From Collimonas sp. OK412 (GTDB lineage Bacteria; Pseudomonadota; Gammaproteobacteria; Burkholderiales; Burkholderiaceae_D), in contig NZ_FOLC01000001.1 of the NCBI RefSeq assembly GCF_900112135.1, positions 248,001 through 312,000 on the forward strand: 64,000 nt of DNA, read 5' to 3'. The position numbers and the translations under genes are program-made. This document shows positions 43,124-56,767 of the stretch, piece after piece (within the stretch, counting starts at the first letter, position 1; each line of letters opens with the position of its first letter). The notes below the pieces were generated by a model that was not told the DNA's origin, made no database searches, and saw nothing but the letters and a program-made list of their open reading frames with translations.

Positions 43124-43213
43124 GGAAGTGTGGCCGAGTGGTTGAAGGCACTAGTCTTGAAAACTAGCGACGGTTTATCCCGTTCGTGAGTTCGAATCTC
43201 ACCGCTTCCGCCA
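43124..43213 (+). tRNA. tRNA-Ser (anticodon TGA)
   Basis: A 90-base type II tRNA beginning GGAAGTGTGGCCGAGTGG and ending in an encoded CCA. The anticodon stem CTAGT/ACTAG encloses CTTGAAA, giving anticodon TGA. The long variable arm (CGACGGTTTATCCCGTTCG) is typical of serine tRNAs. The 3' end is intact, and an integrase remnant lies just downstream. Confidence 0.97.
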
Positions 43214-44620: not shown

Positions 44621-45997
44621 ATGCAGTCGATTGATATGGTTTCTGGCGTTAAATTCGATGACATGCTCCCAAACGGTCTTCCTCCCACGAATTGGATGAA
44701 CGCTCCCCGCCCAAATTATGAGGTCAACGAAGATCTGAAATACGCATATGCAGAAACTCCTGATCTTCATTACAACTCTTCGTACGAATTTGAGGTTCAA
44801 GCGCTGCAGGGATCCATTCCGATAGTAGATTATTACGGGGAGGGATACATCAAGACGGATGGAAATCAGATAACTGGCTTCAAGGGAGCCTACAACGTCA
44901 ATTGGCAATATCAATGCGTATCGAATGGTCCGGATCGTGGCAAGAAAATTCCAAATCGAATCCCTGTCAACGCCTATAACGAAGAAAAGACGGCTGCATA
45001 TATCCGCAATAATTCATGCGATGCCGTGACAATCATGAATGCGCCGATAACTGATAATGCGGCAATCGATATGACGCGCATCGTAAATAACATTGGTAAG
45101 ATAATTGCGTACGACTATTCAAAAAATGATCCGCAGGCCGAACTACTTGCCAAGCATGCGACGAAAAGAAAATTCATTTTCGACCCGACATATGCGTTGA
45201 CAAGCCCATTCAACAAAATTGTTATTTCGAGCCATGGATCGACCTCATATTTTGCGTTCAGGCCGGTGCAGGTTGTACGTTCTGAATTCGTCAGAAATGT
45301 TGTTAGCTTAAAATTCCGGGCCGCAGCCGCAGTGCTGCAATCGATGTATGCCGATTTCGGAGGAGTTGCGAGGCCCTTCATCAAAAGCTTTTTGGATGAA
45401 CTCGGTCCAGCGGAAATTTTTCCGGTTGTTCATTCTGTGGGGGTGAATTGGGCGAGTAACCGGGCGCAATTCGTAGCTGACCACGTCTCGAATTCTGACT
45501 TACGCAAACTTCTAATGGCCTGCTGGAATGGTAATACTGTTAGGCTTTCTTGCTGGAACAGCGACCTCAAATCTACAGTCTACCTAAATGGCACAGGTAA
45601 GCTGTGGTCTGGCGGTCCCAGCTATCACGTCACGACAGACGAGGGTGACCGACAAGGCGCCCACTTCGATTTGTCTCCTACGGCGGAAGGGGCAGGAATC
45701 CGATTTTCTCTCTTAGTGGGTAAAGATAAGTTGTACCTGAACGGTAAGGGCGAACTCTGGTCTGGTGGTCCGAGCTACTGGGCGAGTACTGATCTCGCCT
45801 CCCGCTCAGGAGCAAGTTTTACGTTTAATGTGGTTTCGGAGACGGGCGCGGGTCTTGCCTTCACTTTGGCTACCGAGTTTGGGCTCAACTATCTGAATGG
45901 GATGGGCCAAGCATGGTCTGGAGGCCCCTCATATTACGTCTCTACAGACTTGAAGAGCCGCCGAGGTATTACCCAGCTCGTTTGGAATGTCGCGTGA
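44621..45997 (+). CDS. Protein with three C-terminal lectin-like (beta-trefoil-like) repeats
   Basis: 458 residues, no signal peptide, AGAGG six bases before the ATG. The N-terminal ~300 residues match nothing I recognise; a Rossmann-like stretch may lie around IVNNIGKIIAYDYSKND (155-170). From about 306 to the end there are three repeats with YLNG at 321, 372 and 424 and the shared pattern YLNGxGxLWSGGPSYxxSTD. Repeat length (~51) and total (~150) fit a beta-trefoil, the fold of many carbohydrate-binding lectins. The layout of unknown domain plus C-terminal lectin recalls toxins and agglutinins. Function is inferred only. Confidence 0.75.
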   Translation: MQSIDMVSGVKFDDMLPNGLPPTNWMNAPRPNYEVNEDLKYAYAETPDLHYNSSYEFEVQALQGSIPIVDYYGEGYIKTDGNQITGFKGAYNVNWQYQCVSNGPDRGKKIPNRIPVNAYNEEKTAAYIRNNSCDAVTIMNAPITDNAAIDMTRIVNNIGKIIAYDYSKNDPQAELLAKHATKRKFIFDPTYALTSPFNKIVISSHGSTSYFAFRPVQVVRSEFVRNVVSLKFRAAAAVLQSMYADFGGVARPFIKSFLDELGPAEIFPVVHSVGVNWASNRAQFVADHVSNSDLRKLLMACWNGNTVRLSCWNSDLKSTVYLNGTGKLWSGGPSYHVTTDEGDRQGAHFDLSPTAEGAGIRFSLLVGKDKLYLNGKGELWSGGPSYWASTDLASRSGASFTFNVVSETGAGLAFTLATEFGLNYLNGMGQAWSGGPSYYVSTDLKSRRGITQLVWNVA

Positions 45998-46106: not shown

Positions 46107-46139
46107 AAAGGGTTACAAGTCGAAAACTTGTAACCCTTT
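46107..46139 (-). terminator. Strong hairpin beyond the tRNA fragment
   Basis: A 14-bp perfect stem AAAGGGTTACAAGT/ACTTGTAACCCTTT with loop CGAAA. It lies just past the 3' end of the tRNA fragment on the minus strand, the same layout as the intact tRNA-Arg and its hairpin at 13023-13050. It is probably the old terminator of the lost tRNA gene; it also follows the three-repeat gene on the plus strand. Confidence 0.65.
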
Positions 46140-46147
46140 GATTTTAT

Positions 46148-46187
46148 TGGCCGGGGCGAGAGGATTCGAACGTCCTAACCCTTGCAT
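46148..46187 (-). pseudogene. 3' fragment of a tRNA gene (tRNA-Pro-like)
   Basis: Read on the minus strand, this ends CGCCCCGGCCA, preceded by TTCGAATCCTCT and ATGCAAGGGT. It looks like the T-arm, acceptor 3' strand and CCA of a tRNA, closest by eye to tRNA-Pro (GGG). The 5' strand of the T stem does not pair well, and no D-arm or 5' acceptor strand is found. It could be a decayed tRNA or an attachment-site remnant. Confidence 0.5.
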
Positions 46188-46455: not shown

Positions 46456-47106
46456 CTATCCGAGCGCAAGGACTTGCGTTGCCTTGTTCCAATAGTCCAA
46501 TCGCGATTGCAAACCTATATCGCCGCCGTTGATGCGTCGGCAGATCTTGATGAAATCATCCCTGGCATTGCCGTTCGGCTTGAGATCGGCAAGCTCATTC
46601 AGTCCTGCCGTGGCCCAATACCAGGCTGCTGAACGCGCTGCGCCTGCCGGTTCTTGCAATAATTCCGGTTGCGCCAGCAGGTCCAGTTTTAATGCCTTGC
46701 CACAGCGTTCATAGTTGTCGCGTCCGGTCAGTTGAATCAAGCCGCGGCCGCGATATTTCCAGCCGTCGCCGCTGGCTTCGTCGCCATTTCCAAGTCGATT
46801 GGCGTAAACGTTGCTAGCCAGTTTTTCCGGATTGCTGGCATATTGGAGCGCGACGCTGTCGGTCGGAAAGCGGTGCGGCCATACCTGGCGCAGCCGTATA
46901 GACGAGTAGTTGAGATTCTCCGACAGGACTTTCAACTGTGCCGATTCGTGCAGGATTTGCGCAAGGAATGCCGCCTGGCGATATGTGTTGCCGATTGACC
47001 ATTCTGTGAGTGCGGCGTTGATGGGATCGAGCCAAAGAGTGACTCGGGAATTGTCAGCTGCGGTGTCCAGCAAGCTGGCAAGCTGTTCTTGGGAGATGGC
47101 AGGCAT
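46456..47106 (-). CDS. GH19 lysozyme/chitinase-type glycoside hydrolase
   Basis: 216 residues. FLAQILHESAQLKVLSENLNYS contains the two likely catalytic glutamates (Glu54 and Glu63); YRGRGLIQLTGRDNY and ARSAAWYWATAGLNELAD are strong GH19 motifs. The close relatives are phage endolysin-like GH19 enzymes that cut peptidoglycan rather than chitin. No signal peptide is seen, so export needs another route or lysis. ATG at 47106 has AGAGGAC five bases upstream, which rules against an upstream in-frame start. It follows a DUF2589 gene by 67 bases. Confidence 0.88.
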   Translation of the reverse strand: MPAISQEQLASLLDTAADNSRVTLWLDPINAALTEWSIGNTYRQAAFLAQILHESAQLKVLSENLNYSSIRLRQVWPHRFPTDSVALQYASNPEKLASNVYANRLGNGDEASGDGWKYRGRGLIQLTGRDNYERCGKALKLDLLAQPELLQEPAGAARSAAWYWATAGLNELADLKPNGNARDDFIKICRRINGGDIGLQSRLDYWNKATQVLALG

Positions 47107-47173
47107 AGTGTCCTCTGAAAGAAAAACAAGCAAATCCGTGCACAGATTCACTTGCTTGAAGTCGCATTAAAAT

Positions 47174-47800
47174 TTACGGACCGACAGCGACAGCTGGCTT
47201 GGTGCCATTGGATCTAGGCTGGATGGACGATTGCAGAATGTCCAGTACCCGTGCCAGGCCTTCCGGCATGCCGTTATCTTCAGCCAAGACTTCCACGTGG
47301 TATTTGGCGGAATTGTCGGATGAGCGGGTGTTTTCCTTGTGGGTTGCAACCGAACCTTCGACGTGCACCGTGGCGCTGAACATGCCCCAGCCGAACTTCA
47401 TGTCGGCCGACATTTTGGCCGATGCATCGGTGGATTCCTTGGAGGCGAAAGAAGACTTCACTTCCATGTCAAAGGTGATATCCACCTTGGTGATTGACAG
47501 CGCCGGCACCTTGACGATTGCCAGCAAAGGCACATCCAGAGAAACGCTTTCTTCAATCGTTTTGGTGGCGTCATTGGGATCGGCGATCGGCCGGGTGAAC
47601 GCAAAGTGCGCCGTGCGCGTCGCGCCTACGCCATTTGGATCATTCGCAGCCGGCGGCAGAAAGCCGATGTACTTAATAAAATTGGCAGTAGCGTTCGCCA
47701 ACTTGATTTGGGCATCGCAAGCGGCAGTCAATGGGCTGCCAATCAGGTCGCCCATCGGCAAGCCCTTGAACTGAGACGCCATATCGATAAGATCAGACAT
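47174..47800 (-). CDS. DUF2589-type protein, long form
   Basis: 208 residues, no signal peptide or membrane helix; AAAGGAG six bases before the ATG. Conserved-looking parts are DLIGSPLTAACDAQIKLANATANFI, VPLLAIVKVPALSITKVDITFDMEVKS and MPEGLARVLDILQSSI. These match the DUF2589 family, whose function I do not know. A second shorter member lies at 48935-49456. This gene and the GH19 gene form one transcription unit. Confidence 0.8.
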   Translation of the reverse strand: MSDLIDMASQFKGLPMGDLIGSPLTAACDAQIKLANATANFIKYIGFLPPAANDPNGVGATRTAHFAFTRPIADPNDATKTIEESVSLDVPLLAIVKVPALSITKVDITFDMEVKSSFASKESTDASAKMSADMKFGWGMFSATVHVEGSVATHKENTRSSDNSAKYHVEVLAEDNGMPEGLARVLDILQSSIQPRSNGTKPAVAVGP

Positions 47801-48023
47801 TGTTTACTCCTTTAGAAATGACCCAGACGGGTCTGAAAAAAGCCATGCTGAAAAACCGCAGCCTGGCGCCGAGTCGCGCATGACGCGCTCAGGACAATCT
47901 TAGGATTGGCAAACAATGAGTTCGTGACATTTCCTGTCGTATCGGCTGGGTGGCGCGCGAAGTGAGCAGGGGAATGGAGAAGGGGATTGGAGTTGTAGAA
48001 AAGTTGAGCCGGATTTTTTAAGC

Positions 48024-48051
48024 AAAAAAAATGACGAAATCTACCGTCATT
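48024..48051 (-). terminator. Terminator between the two DUF2589 units
   Basis: On the minus strand AATGACG/CGTCATT with an eight-base loop is followed by seven T. It ends the upstream three-gene unit (48108-49456) and separates it from the DUF2589-GH19 unit. The rest of the 307-base gap 47801-48107 must hold the second unit's promoter; none is obvious. Confidence 0.85.
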
Positions 48052-48107
48052 AAATTGACATCCTACCGACTCCAGGATCGTTGTAATGCAACAGGCGGTC
48101 GCTACAT

Positions 48108-48647
48108 TTATTCAATCTTGCGGATCCAGAATTTGCGCCACATTTTCTGCGACGAACGCCACCAGGAAGTGTCCGGAATCAGGCTGGAAAATTTTGACTG
48201 CTGATCCTCCGTTAGCAGAAAGATCCAATTTCGACGACTGCGTTTCGGCCGCATCGCGTTACCCGGACCTAGCGCCAGATTGGTCCCATCTTTGGCGACC
48301 TGAATTTCCAGATGCTTCAGTACGTGGGGATGGCGTATTTTCTGCCACCAGTTCGGCGTCTGGAGCATGAGCACCACTTGAGATTCCTTGTCGAATTTCC
48401 TGGTCGTCAGGTAACAGGGCAGGCTGAAAATAAAATCCTGCAAGCTATAGCCGTGATTCCTGTGGAATTTATCGTAGGGGATGGTTAGCAGTTCGTATGT
48501 CGCCTGATGCGGCAGGCGATACGAAAATACTTGCGTTGCATCTGCGCCTTTCTGTTCAGAGATAGCAGGCAAGTCGCGGTTGACTTGTTCAAATACGCGG
48601 GACAGCTCAGCACAAAACACATCCAGCGTTAAGGTGATGGCCGTCAT
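48108..48647 (-). CDS. Unknown protein of the DUF2589 cluster, 179 residues
   Basis: No signal peptide or membrane helix and no domain I recognise. Features: VFSYRLPHQATYELLTIPYDKFH in the middle and a Trp/Arg/Lys-rich C-terminus (DTSWWRSSQKMWRKFWIRK). The start lies two bases after the stop of the 88-residue gene, so the two are translationally coupled. A clear terminator follows. Confidence 0.7.
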   Translation of the reverse strand: MTAITLTLDVFCAELSRVFEQVNRDLPAISEQKGADATQVFSYRLPHQATYELLTIPYDKFHRNHGYSLQDFIFSLPCYLTTRKFDKESQVVLMLQTPNWWQKIRHPHVLKHLEIQVAKDGTNLALGPGNAMRPKRSRRNWIFLLTEDQQSKFSSLIPDTSWWRSSQKMWRKFWIRKIE

Positions 48648-48649
48648 GC

Positions 48650-48916
48650 TCAGTCCAGATGCAGCGGCTTGCGCGCAAAGCCAAGGTGGTACACGGCGTA
48701 TTGCAGCACCACCTGATGCTCGCCGATGTTATACAAGCCGAAGCATTTTTCCACATTGAGGATAAAGCCGCGCGGCGTGCCGCTTAAACAGCGGTTAACC
48801 AGGTCCATGGCTTCCTGGACTTCGGCCTCGGTGCGGATGTTTTGCGGGTTGTCGTTGCCAACCACGATGCGTTTGATAAAACGCATTTCAGTTAAACGAA
48901 AGCGATCCATACTCAC
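48650..48916 (-). CDS. Unknown protein of the DUF2589 cluster, 88 residues
   Basis: The ribosome binding site decides the start: AAAAAAGGAG lies seven bases before a GTG at 48916, and 13 bases before the ATG at 48910. Sequence includes AEVQEAMDLVNRCLSGTPRGFILN and EHQVVLQYAVYHLGFARKP. I recognise no family. It starts 18 bases after the short DUF2589 gene and overlaps nothing. Confidence 0.7.
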   Translation of the reverse strand: MSMDRFRLTEMRFIKRIVVGNDNPQNIRTEAEVQEAMDLVNRCLSGTPRGFILNVEKCFGLYNIGEHQVVLQYAVYHLGFARKPLHLD

Positions 48917-48934
48917 GTTGTACTCCTTTTTTGA

Positions 48935-49456
48935 TTACTCCTGCACCAGTCCGGTTGGACCCTGTTCTTTCACCACATCGTTGAGCAGGCGCGCCAGCCC
49001 ATCCGATTTTTCCGTGGCCTGCAGTTTCAATTTGATGTGCGCTATATTCCTGTCCCGGGAGCCGTTATTTGCGCTGGCAGGGCTGACCATGAGCCCGGCC
49101 TTTCTGCCCGCCGGCGCCGCCATGCCGGTCTGACTCATGATGGATTCGTTGTGGCCGCTGCGATCCTGCTCTTCAAACGCGCCCAGTTCCATGTCCAGAT
49201 CAATCTCTGCCTCGCCGATGATGAGCGAACTGTGCGGCACCAGCGACAGCAAAGGCAGGCGGTAATGCAACATGTCACCGGGCTTGGCGGTGCTGTGTAC
49301 CGCCGGTAACTTGAGCTCGATGGTGGTGGGTTGCTTATCATCAGTAAAGAAAGACGCAATGTTTGCTACCTGTGCTTTTTCCACCATGTGCTGTGCATTC
49401 ATGATGGATCCGGCAATCGCAAGCACCATATCTTCCAGGCTGGTTAAATTGGCCAT
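48935..49456 (-). CDS. DUF2589-type protein, short form
   Basis: 173 residues, no signal peptide; TGGAG five bases before the ATG. LEDMVLAIAGSIMNAQHMVEKAQ, MLHYRLPLLSLVPHSSLIIGEAEIDLDMEL and GLARLLNDVVKEQ match the long form's VPLLAIVKVPAL...DITFDMEV and GLARVLDILQ. It is the first gene of the cluster and divergent from the secreted protein at 49708. Confidence 0.78.
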   Translation of the reverse strand: MANLTSLEDMVLAIAGSIMNAQHMVEKAQVANIASFFTDDKQPTTIELKLPAVHSTAKPGDMLHYRLPLLSLVPHSSLIIGEAEIDLDMELGAFEEQDRSGHNESIMSQTGMAAPAGRKAGLMVSPASANNGSRDRNIAHIKLKLQATEKSDGLARLLNDVVKEQGPTGLVQE

Positions 49457-50568: not shown

Positions 50569-50661
50569 TTTCTGCGAACGGCGGCACACAAAAGCGACGC
50601 CCCGCTTTTGTGTGCATTCCGATCTTCTTTTACTTTCTGTATTCCTGCGCGGATTCTATTT

Positions 50662-51903
50662 ATGCAAAAAGATATGTTGCGGCTTGCGCGGCTGCTGCTT
50701 TGCCTCGGCCTGATTTTCATTATGCTCTACGCCACGTTCAGCGCCGTTCCTTCGCGTCGGATCAGGATCGCCGCTGGTCCGGAGGACGGCAGTTTTTATG
50801 CGATGGCGCTTCAGTATAAAAAAATACTGGAGAAAAAATCCTATCGGGTTGACATTGTCTCTTTTCAAAACACAGATGAAATTTCCGCCGAGGTGGCGGA
50901 CAGCACAAAACATATTGATATCGGTTTCGTAGCAAACGATCTGCAGGGTAAAAGCCAGGCCAGCCTGATATCTCTTGGAGAGATTCAACTGCAACCCATT
51001 TTCATTTTCGTAAACCGGAAAGTGGAAACGGAAAGAAGCATTCTGTCGCTCGCCGACCTGCGCGGTTTAAGCCTGGTTCTTCCTCCCGAAAAGAGCGTCA
51101 CCAGCCAGACTTTGCTGAGCATGTTCGCGGCATACGGCATAGACCAACGCAATACGCTTATCCGCTTTCTTCCTTTGAATATCGGGGTCGCCCGGCTTGC
51201 CCGCGAAGAATTTGACGGCGGCCTGTTTATCCTGGGCGCCGAGAGCGAGTTGATGGCAGAACTGGGAAAGAACAAGAAATTTGTTCTGGTGGAGCTGACG
51301 CAGCAATCGGCCATCGTAAAGAAATTTCCCTTTTTGCAGAAAGTAACTCTGCCGAACGGCATCTTTGATCTGAAAGAGAAAATTCCAAGTGGCGATGTCA
51401 AGCTGTTGGCGGCGAATATCTCAGTAGTTGCTCAAAAAAAATTACCGCCGGCCACAACTTATGCATTGCTGGAGGCGATGCGAGAAGTGCATCGCAACAG
51501 TAACTACGTCAGCAATGCAGACGAATTCCCTAAATATCGCGGCACTGCGATCCAGACCAATGATCTGGTCAGCGACTTCTACCGCAACGGCACACCCTGG
51601 ATTTTTTCCACCTTCCCGATAGCAATTGCCAGCATCCTCGATGCCTACCTGGCGCCGCTTCTGGGGCTTTGGTTCGTGCTCAGCATATACAGGGTTTTTA
51701 TTCAGTTTGAAAAAATTCGCAGTCTGACTTTGTTTTTTCTAGCCCATCTGCTGATTTTCTGGACGCGATGGCATATCAGGAATGGCCGGCCTTTATCCGC
51801 ACGCGTTCGATTTTTTCTGGAAAAAATCGAATCCGCAATAAAGAGGGAGGAGCGGGGCCTGCCTGTGTTGCTGGCGGAAATAAGACATATCAAACAGCTT
51901 TAG
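50662..51903 (+). CDS. TAXI-type solute-binding protein with C-terminal membrane anchor
   Basis: 413 residues. An N-terminal helix (~5-25) is followed by a binding domain with the TAXI hallmark IRIAAGPEDGSFYAMALQYKKIL, VSFQNTDEISAEVADSTKHIDIGFV and LADLRGLSLVLPPEKS. A second membrane segment (~310-345) and a charged cytoplasmic tail follow, so it is membrane-anchored. TAXI proteins feed TRAP transporters, but no TRAP permease gene is nearby. ATG at 50662 is preferred to a TTG at 50608. Confidence 0.85.
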   Translation: MQKDMLRLARLLLCLGLIFIMLYATFSAVPSRRIRIAAGPEDGSFYAMALQYKKILEKKSYRVDIVSFQNTDEISAEVADSTKHIDIGFVANDLQGKSQASLISLGEIQLQPIFIFVNRKVETERSILSLADLRGLSLVLPPEKSVTSQTLLSMFAAYGIDQRNTLIRFLPLNIGVARLAREEFDGGLFILGAESELMAELGKNKKFVLVELTQQSAIVKKFPFLQKVTLPNGIFDLKEKIPSGDVKLLAANISVVAQKKLPPATTYALLEAMREVHRNSNYVSNADEFPKYRGTAIQTNDLVSDFYRNGTPWIFSTFPIAIASILDAYLAPLLGLWFVLSIYRVFIQFEKIRSLTLFFLAHLLIFWTRWHIRNGRPLSARVRFFLEKIESAIKREERGLPVLLAEIRHIKQL

Positions 51904-51956
51904 CACGCAGCGAATCATTGTCGCTTTCCACGTCAATCCACACAGGAGACCATGCC

Positions 51957-52763
51957 ATGTCCATAGATGCGAACGATATCAGCAGAACGATGCAAGAAAC
52001 TTATGATCATTATTTCCTAAGCGATGGATATCGTCGACGCTATCCCGAACCTAATGTCGCAACCATGACGTATTTGCTGGAAAAAGGATTGGCCGAAGTC
52101 GACCAGATCCTTGATTTCGGTTGTGGAAATGGCCGATATTCGTTGGCCTTGCTGGAAAAGTCGCAGGCCCATTTAACCGCCTACGATATTTCTGCTGCTT
52201 CTTTGACTGAGTTCGAATCCCGGCTGCGAACCACGTCTCACCGCGAGCGCGTTACTTTTGTGTATGGCGATCTGGATGGCTTGAACAGATACGCCTGCTA
52301 CGATGCAATTCTCATGTTGTTTGGCGTCTTGTCGCACGTGGTCGAACGCAATTTGCGGCTTGAGACTTTGCATAAAATGCGCAGTCTGATTCGGGCCGAT
52401 GGAAAATTGATTTTATCTGTTCCTTCAATCTTCCGGCGCAGACCTTGGGAATTGTTCAAATACGGGCTGGCTCGAACTCTGGGCCATGCCCGGCCGCCGC
52501 ATGATGAAGCGGGCAATATCTGCTTCACGAGGCGCATCCAGGGGCGCAACCTGACGTTCTTCTATCATCTCTACTCATTGCGTACCTTATGCGAAGAGTT
52601 GGCTGAGGCTGGATTTGCGATCAGCGAGTGGCAGCCGGAAAGTGTGTTTCCTGAGTGGCTGGTAACGCAATCCAGTTTGATGCGTTGTATCGACCGGCGC
52701 CTGTGCTCCTGGATTCCGGCTGAACTTGGCTATGGCATGCGAGTGCTGGCCAATCCTGTATGA
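51957..52763 (+). CDS. Class I SAM-dependent methyltransferase
   Basis: 268 residues. Motif I is ILDFGCGNGRYSLALLEK; acidic loop AYDISAASL, motif II VTFVYGDLDGL, and IRADGKLILSVPSIFRRRP at post-II. Substrate is unknown; a long insert of aromatic residues follows (NLTFFYHLYSLRTL). AGGAG lies ten bases before the ATG at 51957. Its stop overlaps the next gene's start (ATGA), so it is coupled to the transporter fusion. Confidence 0.88.
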   Translation: MSIDANDISRTMQETYDHYFLSDGYRRRYPEPNVATMTYLLEKGLAEVDQILDFGCGNGRYSLALLEKSQAHLTAYDISAASLTEFESRLRTTSHRERVTFVYGDLDGLNRYACYDAILMLFGVLSHVVERNLRLETLHKMRSLIRADGKLILSVPSIFRRRPWELFKYGLARTLGHARPPHDEAGNICFTRRIQGRNLTFFYHLYSLRTLCEELAEAGFAISEWQPESVFPEWLVTQSSLMRCIDRRLCSWIPAELGYGMRVLANPV

Positions 52764-54382
52764 AACCGGGCAGGAGAATCCGGCGCTCGGGATGGCAAAT
52801 AGGCTGCGCTTGTTTACTTGTACTCGTTCTCATGTTCGTTGCCGCTGCGCATGCCGAAAGTCGCATGGATTTAATCAAAAAACGCGGTGTGCTGATCGTG
52901 GGAGTCAAGACGGATTACCCGCCTTTTGGGATGTTATCGCCGGATGCAACGCTCCAGGGTTTTGAGCATGACTTGGCAGAAGATCTGGCGCGGGGCCTAG
53001 GCGTCGCCCTGCGCAAAGTGGCGGTGACTGGGGCTAACCGCTTGCAGGTACTGGATGAAGGCGGAATAGATCTGACGATCGCGACTTTAGGCGATACCTA
53101 CGCACGGAGGCAGATTGCCGATTTGATAGAGCCCAACTACTACTCTTCCGGCGTAACGTTAATGACGCGGCCGGACAGCAAGCTAGACACCTGGGCCGAC
53201 GTGCGGGGGCAAAAGGTATGCGCCACCCAAGGCAGTTACTTCAACCGCGCAATGGCTACCCGCTATCTGCTGGATTTGCAGATATTTGCAAATGGCCGCG
53301 ACGCCAAACTGGCAGTGCGCGACGGCCGTTGCGCCGGCTGGCTGTTTGATAACACAGCGATCGCGGGCGATTTATTGTCAGATGAGTGGAAATACTATAA
53401 AACCAAACTGCGCCCGCAGCTTCTGACGCCATGGGCCATAGCTATTGCGCGCTCTGAAAAAGGCGGTGCATTGGAGCGCTTCATCGGCGATACCGTCGCG
53501 CAATGGCATCGGCGCGGCTTTTTGCTTGAACTGGAAAAGAAATGGCGCCTGCCGCCTTCCATTTTTTTGACCGAGATGCATACCTTGTGGAATGAGAAAG
53601 ATGAAAAGGGCGCATTCGTTTGCGGGCGTTTGCCGGACGGCCAATGGCCGGTAGTTTGCCGTAACCCTATCTTCATCACATCAACTGAAACCACAGGCTT
53701 GCGTCAATTCGGATTGCTGGTCAAAGAAAAAACCGGCGTCAATCTCACCTTCATTTACGACGACTATGAGCGTGATCAATTTATCCGTGCTTTATTCACC
53801 ACGTTGGCGCTCACGGCTTCTTGCGTATTCGGCAGCCTGGTTAGCGGCATGATCTTCGCGCTGGCCATAGAGCAGAGGATTCCGCTGCTCAGTCAATTTT
53901 TAAAAGGTTTTACTTTAATTGGCAGAATGACCCCGCCTCTGTTGCAGATTTACGTGCTGGCATTTGGAATAGGCAGCGTACTGGCAGCCAACTGGGGGAT
54001 ACAGCTGAACTCCTTCCTGATTGTCGTGCTGTGCCTGTGCTGGTACACCGGATCAGGTATTTTGCACATTCTGGAAAATGCCAGCGACAAAGAACGTTTG
54101 CGAGATCCCGGCTTTCGGCTGAACTTAGGTACTTTACGAGCAATCGCGAGTCGCTGTTCGACATCGATATTGGCGTCCCTGGTGAATGTGAGCAAAGCCA
54201 CCATGATGGCCAGTGCTGTTGCAGTGCCTGAACTGTTGTCGGTGTCCACTTCAATTATCGCTGAGCACGGAACGGTGGCAACGATGATGAATACATTGAT
54301 GCTGTTATTCCTGGTTCTGGTGTTCGTGGTGCTGCGTCTGTTGCAACGGGTAGAGCGGAGGTGGTGCCATGGGATGGATTGA
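52760..54382 (+). CDS. Amino-acid ABC binding-protein/permease fusion
   Basis: 540 residues. A signal peptide or anchor (CACLLVLVLMFVAAAHA) is followed by a family 3 binding domain (~37-270): RGVLIVGVKTDYPPFGML, GFEHDLAEDLARGLG and GGIDLTIATLGDTYARRQIADL. From ~345 to 530 is a HisM/GlnP-type permease: FIRALFTTLALTASCVFGSLV and VNVSKATMMASAVAVPELL. The signal sequence overlaps the methyltransferase stop. Fusions of this type occur in some amino acid importers. No ATPase gene is nearby. Confidence 0.85.
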   Translation: MKPGRRIRRSGWQIGCACLLVLVLMFVAAAHAESRMDLIKKRGVLIVGVKTDYPPFGMLSPDATLQGFEHDLAEDLARGLGVALRKVAVTGANRLQVLDEGGIDLTIATLGDTYARRQIADLIEPNYYSSGVTLMTRPDSKLDTWADVRGQKVCATQGSYFNRAMATRYLLDLQIFANGRDAKLAVRDGRCAGWLFDNTAIAGDLLSDEWKYYKTKLRPQLLTPWAIAIARSEKGGALERFIGDTVAQWHRRGFLLELEKKWRLPPSIFLTEMHTLWNEKDEKGAFVCGRLPDGQWPVVCRNPIFITSTETTGLRQFGLLVKEKTGVNLTFIYDDYERDQFIRALFTTLALTASCVFGSLVSGMIFALAIEQRIPLLSQFLKGFTLIGRMTPPLLQIYVLAFGIGSVLAANWGIQLNSFLIVVLCLCWYTGSGILHILENASDKERLRDPGFRLNLGTLRAIASRCSTSILASLVNVSKATMMASAVAVPELLSVSTSIIAEHGTVATMMNTLMLLFLVLVFVVLRLLQRVERRWCHGMD

Positions 54383-55010
54383 AATCACGAGAAATCTGCT
54401 TGAGTGGACTCCCTTTTTGGCAATTGGCTTTATGTGGAATATCCTGATTTCCGTGCTCGCATTGGGTATTGGCGCGGCCTGCGGCGGCCTGCTGGTTCTG
54501 TTACGGCTGTCCCGCCATCGGAAGCTGGCTCTTGCAGGAGCCAGCTTGACCGAATTCATGCGTAATGTGCCGACATTTGTATTCCAGATTTATCTGATGT
54601 TCATGCTGCCGGAATCATTGATGTTGCCATTTTCTACTATCAACCTGTCTTTTCCTTCCTGGCTGAAAGCGGCGTTGGCGCTGGCATTGGCCGTGGCGGG
54701 TTTTGTTTCAGATAATTTGCTCAGTGCGATACAGGCATGGCGCAACGAAAGATTTCAGAACGCACTGCTTTTTATCCCTAATTTGTGTAATTTCTTTGTG
54801 ATTATTATCATGGCATCCTCCACCGCCTCGGTGATAGGCGTGTCGGAATTGGTCAGCCGCTGCAACACAGTCATCAACGCCAGCGGAACGACACAGATCA
54901 TGTTATGGGTTTACCTGTATGCGATGATCTGGTTCTTTTTGTTTTGTTATATGGTGACGGCGGCCATCAATAAATTCAGTTCCGGCATGTTGCGCCGTAT
55001 AAGTACTTAA
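54369..55010 (+). CDS. Amino-acid ABC permease (HisM/GlnP type)
   Basis: 213 residues with about five helices. LASGASLTEFMRNVPTFVFQIYLMFMLP-like ASLTEFMRNVPTFVFQIYL holds the E-x-x-R-N/x-P loop. MASSTASVIGVSELVSR is at the EAA-like site. It overlaps the fusion gene by 14 bases, so both are translated together, giving two permease subunits. The partner ATPase must be supplied elsewhere. Confidence 0.82.
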   Translation: MGWIEITRNLLEWTPFLAIGFMWNILISVLALGIGAACGGLLVLLRLSRHRKLALAGASLTEFMRNVPTFVFQIYLMFMLPESLMLPFSTINLSFPSWLKAALALALAVAGFVSDNLLSAIQAWRNERFQNALLFIPNLCNFFVIIIMASSTASVIGVSELVSRCNTVINASGTTQIMLWVYLYAMIWFFLFCYMVTAAINKFSSGMLRRIST

Positions 55011-55738: not shown

Positions 55739-56239
55739 TCCTTTTCATGTGGGCGTATATGGCGTTGAGCCATATACTTAAACGGACCACCGCTTAATCA
55801 ATAGAAGGCGGCCACACGGAATCTTTTTCGCTTTCGTGCCCAGCGTGTCGGCATGAAAACCTCAAAGATCATGAAAAGAGTAATCTCGGCATTTGCCTGG
55901 AAAATGATGATTCCTGACATGGGCAAAGCGCTGACTGGAATGCGCAAAGGAGAGAGTGACAGTAGTGGGGCAGCTCGCTGGCAGGGCGAATGATTCACAG
56001 AATTGGATGCAAATATGCCCGTTGATCGGGCAAACGAGATACGGGATTTTCAGGCCATCATGGCGATGAATTTACATTCAGGGCGGACCTGCCTGTGTTA
56101 CGGATGCATTAGCAACAGCGTTTCCCATCCGTGGATCATCATGTTTCTAAAAAAATATGGAAAATGTCATGAATTGTCATGATAACAGTATTTCCATGAA
56201 CCAACATATGGCTATGAATCTACTTTGTTGGGGCAAAAA
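55739..56239. other. 500-base gap between divergent genes
   Basis: No supported gene. Short open frames (for example 55798-55998 on the minus strand) have no family-like features. The right end holds the direct repeat at 56165-56182 and the upstream region of the winged-helix regulator. The left end is the upstream region of the papain-like gene. Confidence 0.6.
56165..56182 (+). promoter_or_regulatory. Direct repeat TGTCATGA upstream of the winged-helix regulator
   Basis: TGTCATGA occurs at 56165-56172 and 56175-56182, ten bases start to start (one DNA turn), about 58 bases before the regulator start. OmpR/PhoB-type proteins typically bind such tandem repeats, so this is a candidate autoregulatory site. 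Inference only. Confidence 0.45.
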
Positions 56240-56767
56240 ATGATGACGTTGCTTCTCCTGAACGATGACACTCGGGATAAAAATGAGATCTGCGATTTTT
56301 TCAGCAGCGCCGGTTATCAGATCAATTGGAGCGAAACATCGGCTACCTTTCTGGCCGGACAAAGCCTGAGGGAACAAAATAAATCCATCACCATCCTTCA
56401 AATAGATCACACGCATCCATTTCCCCCCGACATAGCCAACCTGACCCAGGGCCTCATGGTGCCTTGGCGCCTGTCCTTGCATCAGCGGACCTTGACTGCG
56501 CCAAACAACAACAAGATCAAACTTACCAGCCTTGAATTTACATTGATCAAAACCTTCGCCCTGCTGGAAAAAGGCGAGGTGGCGTCCAGGAAGAAGATTA
56601 TTGACGAATTTGGCGAGCACTATTTGAGCTACGATCAAAACCGGCTAGACACCATGATCATGCGCTTACGCAAGAAAATCAGACATGGACTGGGACTGAC
56701 ACTGCCCTTAAATACGGTGAGGGTGCGCGGATTCAGCTTTGACGATCTACTCATCCTCGATCACTAA
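56240..56767 (+). CDS. Winged-helix (OmpR-type) regulator with degenerate receiver
   Basis: 175 residues. The C-terminal half (~80-167) is a Trans_reg_C winged helix: KLTSLEFTLIKTFALLEKGEVASRKKIIDE and RLDTMIMRLRKKI with VRVRGFSF. The N-terminal half (~1-75) begins MTLLLLNDDTRDKNEICDFFSSAGY like a receiver, but no phospho-acceptor Asp at the expected place is evident (ITILQIDHTHP). It may be a pseudo-receiver. No histidine kinase gene is nearby. GGGG precedes the ATG. Confidence 0.82.
   Translation: MMTLLLLNDDTRDKNEICDFFSSAGYQINWSETSATFLAGQSLREQNKSITILQIDHTHPFPPDIANLTQGLMVPWRLSLHQRTLTAPNNNKIKLTSLEFTLIKTFALLEKGEVASRKKIIDEFGEHYLSYDQNRLDTMIMRLRKKIRHGLGLTLPLNTVRVRGFSFDDLLILDH

Follow-up and report, generated by a model that had tools for sequence, protein, structure and literature searches.

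Two DUF2589 paralogues recur with a small family-less protein and exchangeable peptidoglycan hydrolases, suggesting an undescribed machine at the cell envelope

The question raised by the studied locus of Collimonas sp. OK412 was whether two DUF2589 proteins, two proteins without a family (p88 and p179) and a GH19 enzyme, all encoded on the minus strand of the 64,000-nucleotide stretch of DNA analysed (the window), serve one function or are neighbours by chance. The five genes were found in the ORF list where the initial annotation had placed them (Table 1). On the basis of locus comparisons, p88 and the two DUF2589 proteins, large and small, almost certainly constitute one conserved, horizontally scattered module, in most cases coupled to a single peptidoglycan hydrolase whose type varies. 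That the module travels with unrelated wall-cutting enzymes suggests an undescribed machine opening or crossing the cell envelope. No described function of DUF2589 (PF11655) was found in the literature searched, in which one paper (PMC3949148) names the family, as a co-expressed Archaeoglobus cluster.

Table 1. Location of the module, hairpins and neighbouring genes in the window.
Feature	Position	Strand	Details
Small DUF2589	48935-49456	-	173 aa; PF11655 78.3 bits
p88, third conserved core protein	48650-48916	-	GTG start; 88 residues
p179	48108-48647	-	179 residues; betaproteobacterial version only
Terminator-like hairpin dividing two units	48051-48030	-	8-pair stem then T-run; about -9 kcal/mol for stretch
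Large DUF2589	47174-47800	-	208 aa; PF11655 160.2 bits
Hairpin with T-rich tail, large DUF2589/GH19 gap	47157-47124	-	15-pair stem; -17.0 kcal/mol for intergenic stretch
GH19 endolysin-type peptidoglycan hydrolase	46456-47106	-	216 aa from ATG; without signal peptide
NMT1/TAXI-like protein, accessory	50608-51903	+	PF16868 E 2.9e-9
SAM methyltransferase, accessory	51957-52763 (scan start 51951)	+	PF13649 E 8.7e-14
Solute-binding domain with C-terminal membrane part, accessory	52760-54382	+	PF00497 E 4.4e-19
Small permease-like membrane protein, accessory	54369-55010	+	Pfam: no match
PhoB-like winged-helix regulator (Trans_reg_C)	56225-56767	+	PF00486 E 4.7e-10

Both DUF2589 paralogues exceeded the Pfam gathering cut-off of 23 bits. 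The phage-lysin-like character ascribed to the GH19 protein was borne out by Pfam (PF00182, 40 bits, E 5e-10), by PHROGs (phrog_181 endolysin, E 2.6e-83) and by the nearest PDB chains, which were solved lytic enzymes and endolysins (best E 1.5e-49). Its E54 and E63, which we take to be catalytic from work on the SPN1S endolysin, were conserved in 39 of 39 GH19 rows, the window row included, and the conserved Glu residues of the window protein align with Glu of 4ok7. No family was matched by p88 in Pfam, PHROGs, NCBIfam or PADLOC, and its AlphaFold2 structure was predicted with pLDDT 91.1 and pTM 0.78. In turn, p179 gave no match below E 0.1 in Pfam, PHROG and NCBIfam and was unlike DUF2589 by hhalign; no clear solved relative of the core proteins was found. 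The cluster is regarded as more than chance, because PF00182 has no match (E ≤ 0.001) in the 5.46-Mb genome other than the GH19 gene, and because genome G007, in which p179 is only 72% and p88 100% identical, shows the same arrangement. The genomic surroundings of the block are variable, and a tRNA-Ser gene precedes this region.

Recurrence of a small and a large DUF2589 gene with p88, a check proposed in the initial annotation, was confirmed across genomes: the three were found together in 56 of 98 fetched DUF2589 loci (L006-L103, L006 and L039 being the same record) from at least five phyla, and the 57 p88 matches of the locus survey include the window itself. Thus, from the four partners expected to co-occur, the DUF2589 pair and p88 did so, whereas p179 was confined to the betaproteobacterial version, with homologues in 18 of the 98 loci and the window. 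Exactly two DUF2589 genes were present in the fetched stretch of 84 of the 98 loci. Within the genus of the window, p88 and the pair shared the same 5 of 15 genomes; of the 398 genomes sampled from the phylum, 5 contained p88. Among loci found via p88 alone, 14 of 15 contained both DUF2589 genes; nine of these 15 genomes were already among the 98 loci, and the six loci from additional genomes included the pair in five and a lysin in four cases. Pair counts in the p88-found loci are independent of the large or small label, the cut-off of which varies with database size, so that in most of these loci both DUF2589 genes were labelled as large.

Massilia G865 retains both units though unlinked, with the large DUF2589 gene on contig C3 and the small DUF2589, p88 and p179 genes on C16, both contig-internal. 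An orphan p88 was present in G861, and in locus L048 the small DUF2589 was recognisable by its last 19 residues only, with p88 not found. DUF2589 was found in settings as distant as an archaeal genome and phage-like contigs, the latter themselves holding DUF2589 pairs. As judged from the compared sequences, gene order is rearranged while the module recurs across phyla, with apparent transfer between them.

Within 2.4 kb of the module, a peptidoglycan hydrolase was encoded in 51 of the 56 p88-positive loci (L006-L103), a count that holds partly by construction, as the hydrolase models were seeded from genes beside modules. The enzymes were of GH19 (27 loci), phrog_33083-like (6), MltF-like (5), GH24 (3), GH108 (3), PF11860 muramidase (3), Amidase_2 (3) and Amidase_3 (1) type, in total eight types, among them a Flavobacterium endolysin-like family. 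MltF-profile matches weaker than 1e-20 were taken as solute-binding cross-matches and left uncounted (L010, L013, L014, L070, L074, L076, L077). No lysin was recognised by the models in the remaining five loci (L034, L044, L059, L060, L063), nor in L137. GH24 was also located directly 3′ of the small DUF2589 gene in eleven Burkholderia-type loci without p88. On the large-DUF2589 tree of 47 rows, which remained after omission of 23 near-copy loci and of loci with neither p88 nor lysin, the eight types require at least seven changes, a count that omits the five rows without a lysin. The core is kept while the hydrolase type varies, and the lysin is therefore interchangeable; a conserved core with eight wall-hydrolase types is strong natural evidence that the job of the core concerns wall cutting.

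Of the 70 hydrolase rows belonging to the seven types other than MltF-like (duplicate loci included), 69 lacked a hydrophobic N-terminal stretch. In the five Vibrio MltF-like enzymes the N-terminus is hydrophobic, and four of the five are encoded divergently; on these grounds they are probably exported by another route, which counts against the lysis/export reading set out below.

The reading that we favour, tentatively, is a regulated holin-less machine by which a cytosolic endolysin would reach the producer's own wall. The two DUF2589 paralogues would co-assemble, p88 would be a chaperone or assembly factor that must contact both of them, and the lysin could be any enzyme suited to the wall of the host. 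In the betaproteobacterial version, the PhoB-like regulator would hold the lysin off until needed, aided, in the window, by the hairpin before the GH19 gene, and the outcome would be controlled lysis or egress of cargo, comparable to the action of type 10 secretion or phage lysis cassettes. Co-occurrence, lysin swapping, the endolysin nature of the enzymes and the nearby regulators were counted for this reading. Somewhat more speculative is a wider proposal, in which large and small DUF2589 would define a holin-less two-component class of envelope openers, with p88 as assembly factor and any host endolysin, extending from Bacteroidota and Bacillota to Pseudomonadota, with the DUF2589 pairs of phage-like contigs as its viral form. 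A holin-less lysis or export device, if true, would be a new route for endolysin-type enzymes to the wall, and DUF2589, little named in the literature searched, gains a first testable role, as does the family-less p88.

Homologues of the PhoB-like regulator (E ≤ 1e-36) were found in 26 of 115 loci searched, four of the 26 being duplicates of loci already counted, and together with p179 the regulator marks, as far as sequence comparison tells, the betaproteobacterial version. Near other modules, a LuxR-type regulator cluster (17 loci), an AraC-type regulator (9 loci) and a phage Mor-type regulator (five Vibrio loci) were encountered, each with one locus Pfam-checked.

The "strong terminator" reported between the two units has the right form, a hairpin with a T-run, but is of moderate strength. 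Of 14 other loci, 7 had a hairpin and T-run in the corresponding stretch (-4.0 to -14.2 kcal/mol), and in the other 7 none was found. The hairpin before the GH19 gene, which the initial annotation had passed over, is the stronger of the two and a possible attenuator of GH19. Among 14 other betaproteobacterial-version loci, a hairpin and T-run preceded the lysin in 5, with values of -19 kcal/mol or below in three; none was found in the other 9, which counts against the favoured reading.

None of the five core proteins had a transmembrane segment (highest 19-residue hydropathy 1.67), and the PHROG scan, which covered seven window proteins but none of the membrane proteins at 50608-55010, gave no holin or spanin match. 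Such a scan may overlook spanins, whose genes are short and frequently overlap others. With neither holin nor transmembrane segment in the core, membrane crossing of the lysin would be the weak point of a lysis machine. The occurrence of DUF2589 in 13 phage-like contigs and in further settings with neither p88 nor a recognised lysin also counts against it.

The closest known systems resemble the module in part. Like the holin/endolysin/spanin cassettes of type 10 secretion in Serratia and Yersinia, it combines a nearby PhoB-like regulator with a wall hydrolase that lacks a signal peptide and is encoded outside any recognisable prophage; unlike them, it gave no holin or spanin match, two DUF2589 proteins and p88 being present instead. 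Judged by eye, the window GH19 gene lies outside a prophage, and no holin was recognised in its cassette. The lysis cassette of Yersinia entomophaga is, in the available part of one account, controlled by a PhoB-like regulator (PMC10101115), and DUF2589 is not named in the available parts of two type 10 secretion accounts (PMC10101115, PMC10847048). As to phage lysis cassettes, the module enzymes (GH19, GH24, GH108, muramidase, amidase) are of kinds that phages use. However, none of the window partners resembles a PHROG holin or spanin, no phage structural genes were seen in the gene maps around bacterial loci, and none were noticed by eye in the ORF lists of 42000-62500.

An envelope-directed or assembled structure, as first suggested, was upheld in part. 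An envelope-spanning structure is a less likely rival of the lysis/export reading. DUF2589 would in that case form a rod, a channel or an assembly at the surface, with the hydrolase making a local opening in the wall of the kind that flagellar and secretion machines require. Consistent with this are the usual presence of exactly two paralogues, the accompanying hydrolase of changeable type, the exported appearance of the Vibrio MltF-like enzymes and the terminal helices flanking a beta-rich part in the weak model predicted for the large DUF2589. Moreover, a protein (cluster 7) with several hydrophobic stretches by eye was encoded in 20 loci (Burkholderia, Azospirillum, Rugamonas, Flavobacterium), and an outer-membrane efflux protein in Flavobacterium.

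Improbable, in our view, is antagonism, in which the hydrolase, with a neighbouring phospholipase, EndoU or protease, would be delivered into rivals and DUF2589 and p88 would act as carrier or adaptor. Effector-like neighbours were observed (patatin in L047, Tle1-like in L051, C58-like in L059, EndoU in L034 and an EndoU sequence cluster in six Pseudomonas loci), and ten Pseudomonas, Azospirillum and related loci encode a signal-peptide protein between p88 and GH19 (in L034 after p88), with a Luteibacter relative (hhalign 92%), which could be an immunity protein as in type VI effector/immunity pairs. By contrast, a simple rule found no signal-peptide gene that recurs next to the betaproteobacterial units in over 2 of the 18 loci; the rule also flags stray ORFs in 17 of the 18, most judged antisense or out of frame by eye; those that look real were in L011/L012, L025 and L027. 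Nor does such a gene follow the window GH19 gene 3′ on its strand. The lack, by this rule, of a recurring immunity candidate in this version was counted for self-directed lysis or export.

Still less probable is anti-phage suicide, in which the DUF2589 pair and p88 would act as infection sensors and free the lysin, with death of the cell as the result: the lysin would make a plausible effector, and the patchiness within the genus and the phylum sample and the apparent inter-phylum transfer are typical of defence genes, but 0 of 9 window proteins matched PADLOC (E ≤ 0.1) and phage-like contigs carry DUF2589 pairs themselves. A cluster of purely local origin or of decayed phage lysis genes, with no function in common, to which the phage-like lysins, the variable region and the orphan p88 would fit, is very improbable and already contradicted by the co-occurrence data, i.e. 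the same five carrier genomes for p88 and the pair, the recurrence across phyla in rearranged order, and the unlinked but kept units of Massilia.

The plus-strand accessory genes of the window recur in part beside other modules. The NMT1/TAXI-like gene was also near the module in L010, L013, L014 and L145, and SAM methyltransferase homologues lie near it in Paraburkholderia, Azospirillum and Veronia loci. Both the solute-binding protein (E ≤ 4e-265) and the permease-like protein had strong homologues by the module in L010, L013, L014, L035, L036 and L145.

The five minus-strand genes of the initial annotation, i.e. a GH19 endolysin, a large (208 aa) DUF2589 protein, the 179- and 88-residue proteins p179 and p88, and a small (173 aa) DUF2589 protein, were all present as it had placed them. 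No naming match for p88 or p179 was obtained in Pfam, PHROGs or NCBIfam, and their proposed coupling is consistent with the 2-base gap between the genes. The terminator described as strong does split the cluster into two units, with moderate strength, and is surpassed by the hairpin ahead of the GH19 gene. Among 14 other loci of the betaproteobacterial version (the form with p179 and a PhoB-like regulator), seven had a hairpin with T-run between the units and five had one ahead of the GH19 gene; therefore, neither hairpin is universal. The large DUF2589 was 99% identical in L028 and L041, both Collimonas records.

The block is located within a variable region: in three block-free genomes of the genus, the match to the window extends as far as the tRNA-Ser gene (43.2 kb) and begins again near 60.9 kb in two and 62.2 kb in one.

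Features of the window in and around the gene block
Feature	Position	Strand	Observation
458-aa protein	44621-45997	+	three C-terminal repeats of type YLNGxGxxWSGGPSYxxxTD; no family match; no homologue in 115 fetched loci
tRNA 3′-end-like stretch	46107-46171		inverted relative to tRNA-Ser end 43190-43213 (71% match); adjoins perfect 14-bp hairpin with T-rich tail; no tRNA called by ARAGORN; possibly tRNA remnant or island border
Five-gene block	46456-49456	-	
TAXI-like, methyltransferase, solute-binding/permease genes	50608-55010		also accompany the module in other loci
PhoB-like regulator	56225-56767		homologue present in 26 of the 115 loci searched; position varies

The regulator follows the lysin (the adjacent peptidoglycan hydrolase) in L025, L027 and L145; in L011 and L012 it is divergent and precedes the small DUF2589. 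The TAXI-like and associated genes were beside the module (the DUF2589 pair with p88) in Paraburkholderia (L010, L013, L014), in part in Azospirillum (L035, L036), and as the methyltransferase alone in Veronia (L044).

In total, 98 loci were fetched from plasmids (L006-L009, found through the large DUF2589), genome contigs (L010-L089, found through its alignment; 80 kept of 100 confirmed) and viral contigs (L090-L103), and the large DUF2589 is present by ascertainment in all but L090, which was recovered via p88. The number of DUF2589 genes was exactly two in 84 loci; 11 loci had a single gene and 3 loci had three. p88 was present in 56. Among the single-gene loci, the small copy was on another contig in L016, where masked bases after the large DUF2589 preclude a lysin call, the sequence stops early in L074, and the small DUF2589 is reduced to its last 19 residues in L048; the others mostly belong to another DUF2589 context. 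In L081, L082, L084, L085 and L087-L089 (genomes of KSB1, Geobacter, Bacteroidota, archaea and others), a single DUF2589 precedes a conserved protein of 225 aa, usually together with one of 190 aa. Thirteen phage-like contigs (L091-L103) carry the large and small genes end to end, with neither p88 nor a recognised lysin found; in L093, genes nearby have matches to phage families of ribonucleotide reductase and 2OG-Fe(II) oxygenase.

In an independent ASCERTAINMENT, whole-genome searches with p88 as sole query, p88 turned up in the phylum sample (5 of 398 genomes) and in the family sample (13 of 294 genomes); both counts include the genome of the window. Both DUF2589 genes adjoin p88 in 14 of the 15 loci re-fetched. 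Nine of the 15 appear to be from genomes already in the first set; the six others (L137, L142, L145, L147, L149, L151) contained the pair in five cases and a lysin in four. The exception was G861 (L151), a genome with p88 and without any DUF2589 match. In the window's genus, p88 and the pair occurred in the same 5 of 15 genomes. In genome G865, the large DUF2589 is located at C3:328276, and the small DUF2589, p88, p179 and regulator around C16:32061, both well within their contigs; the units lie apart yet both are retained, and therefore linkage alone is no sufficient explanation. Conservation of p88 is striking at sequence level: between genomes G000 and G007 it was identical, compared with 96% identity for the large and 94% for the small DUF2589, 85% for GH19 and 72% for p179.

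The module is mostly coupled to a lysin, which itself is interchangeable. Besides GH19, GH24, GH108, PF11860 muramidase, Amidase_2 and Amidase_3 were confirmed by Pfam in ten representatives, with an SLT plus solute-binding (MltF-like) enzyme in one Vibrio locus (Pfam) and endolysin-like family phrog_33083 in one Flavobacterium locus (PHROGs, E 2.9e-15). A hydrolase lay ≤2.4 kb away in 51 of 56 p88-positive loci, a fraction biased upwards because the models, built from confirmed seeds, were seeded from these same neighbourhoods; the number of different lysin types is free of this bias. Beyond 2.4 kb, all 113 loci searched gave only four weak solute-binding cross-matches. With 13 from L137-L151, 64 hydrolase genes were counted. 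Of these, 59 share the strand of the module, the exceptions being four Vibrio MltF genes and the gene of L057. In eleven Burkholderia-type loci p88 is absent, and GH24 directly follows the small DUF2589. The large DUF2589 tree has 47 rows, with good support for 18 of its 44 inner branches; on it, at least seven changes are required for the eight lysin types, the minimum possible for that many. The placement of Desulfovibrio and Smac51 within the betaproteobacterial GH19 clade (support 96/86) points to transfer.

The data show the coupling of DUF2589 and p88 with a lysin. This coupling may serve lysis or egress, which we suggest tentatively, because the endolysin-type enzymes are without export signal in 69 of 70 non-MltF rows, regulators recur, in the window a hairpin precedes the lysin, and no recurrent immunity candidate was found in the betaproteobacterial version (a weak test). 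The chief weakness of lysis or egress is the absent holin. An envelope structure is rather unlikely; the Vibrio enzymes look exported and would fit local wall opening better. Antagonism is improbable, and defence is more improbable still. Neither literature searches nor PADLOC returned a described system with these parts. The nearest known kind is the type 10 secretion system, of which a holin is a defining feature; a holin was tested for here and not found, so that the module is not filed under it, though it may still work like one.

The p88 model was a confident prediction (pLDDT 91, pTM 0.78) of a short helix, then strand-helix-strand-strand, with no confident relative found in searches. 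The large DUF2589 model was poor, residues 117-161 being below pLDDT 50, and its only matches at E ≤0.001 were two viral proteins (best A0A516MP19, 35% identity, E 1.8e-8).

Further neighbours were observed. An esterase resembling PHB depolymerases (PF10503, score below cut-off) occurs near Massilia-type and Burkholderia-type modules (L009, L015, L017-L020, L022, L026, L043, L067, L068, L070, L072, L073, L075-L079), often accompanied by a protein with weak similarity to phasins; a 55% identical relative of the esterase adjoins the orphan p88 of L151. Near the Vibrio modules (L007, L008, L042, L045, L046) lies a family of late activators of the phage Mor type (PF08765, as checked for L007). An EndoU nuclease-domain family (checked in L034) with a follower of ~90 to 120 aa, possibly a toxin and immunity pair, is placed after the lysin in L029, L030, L032, L037, L038 and L040; in L034 it is preceded by p88 and a signal-peptide protein.
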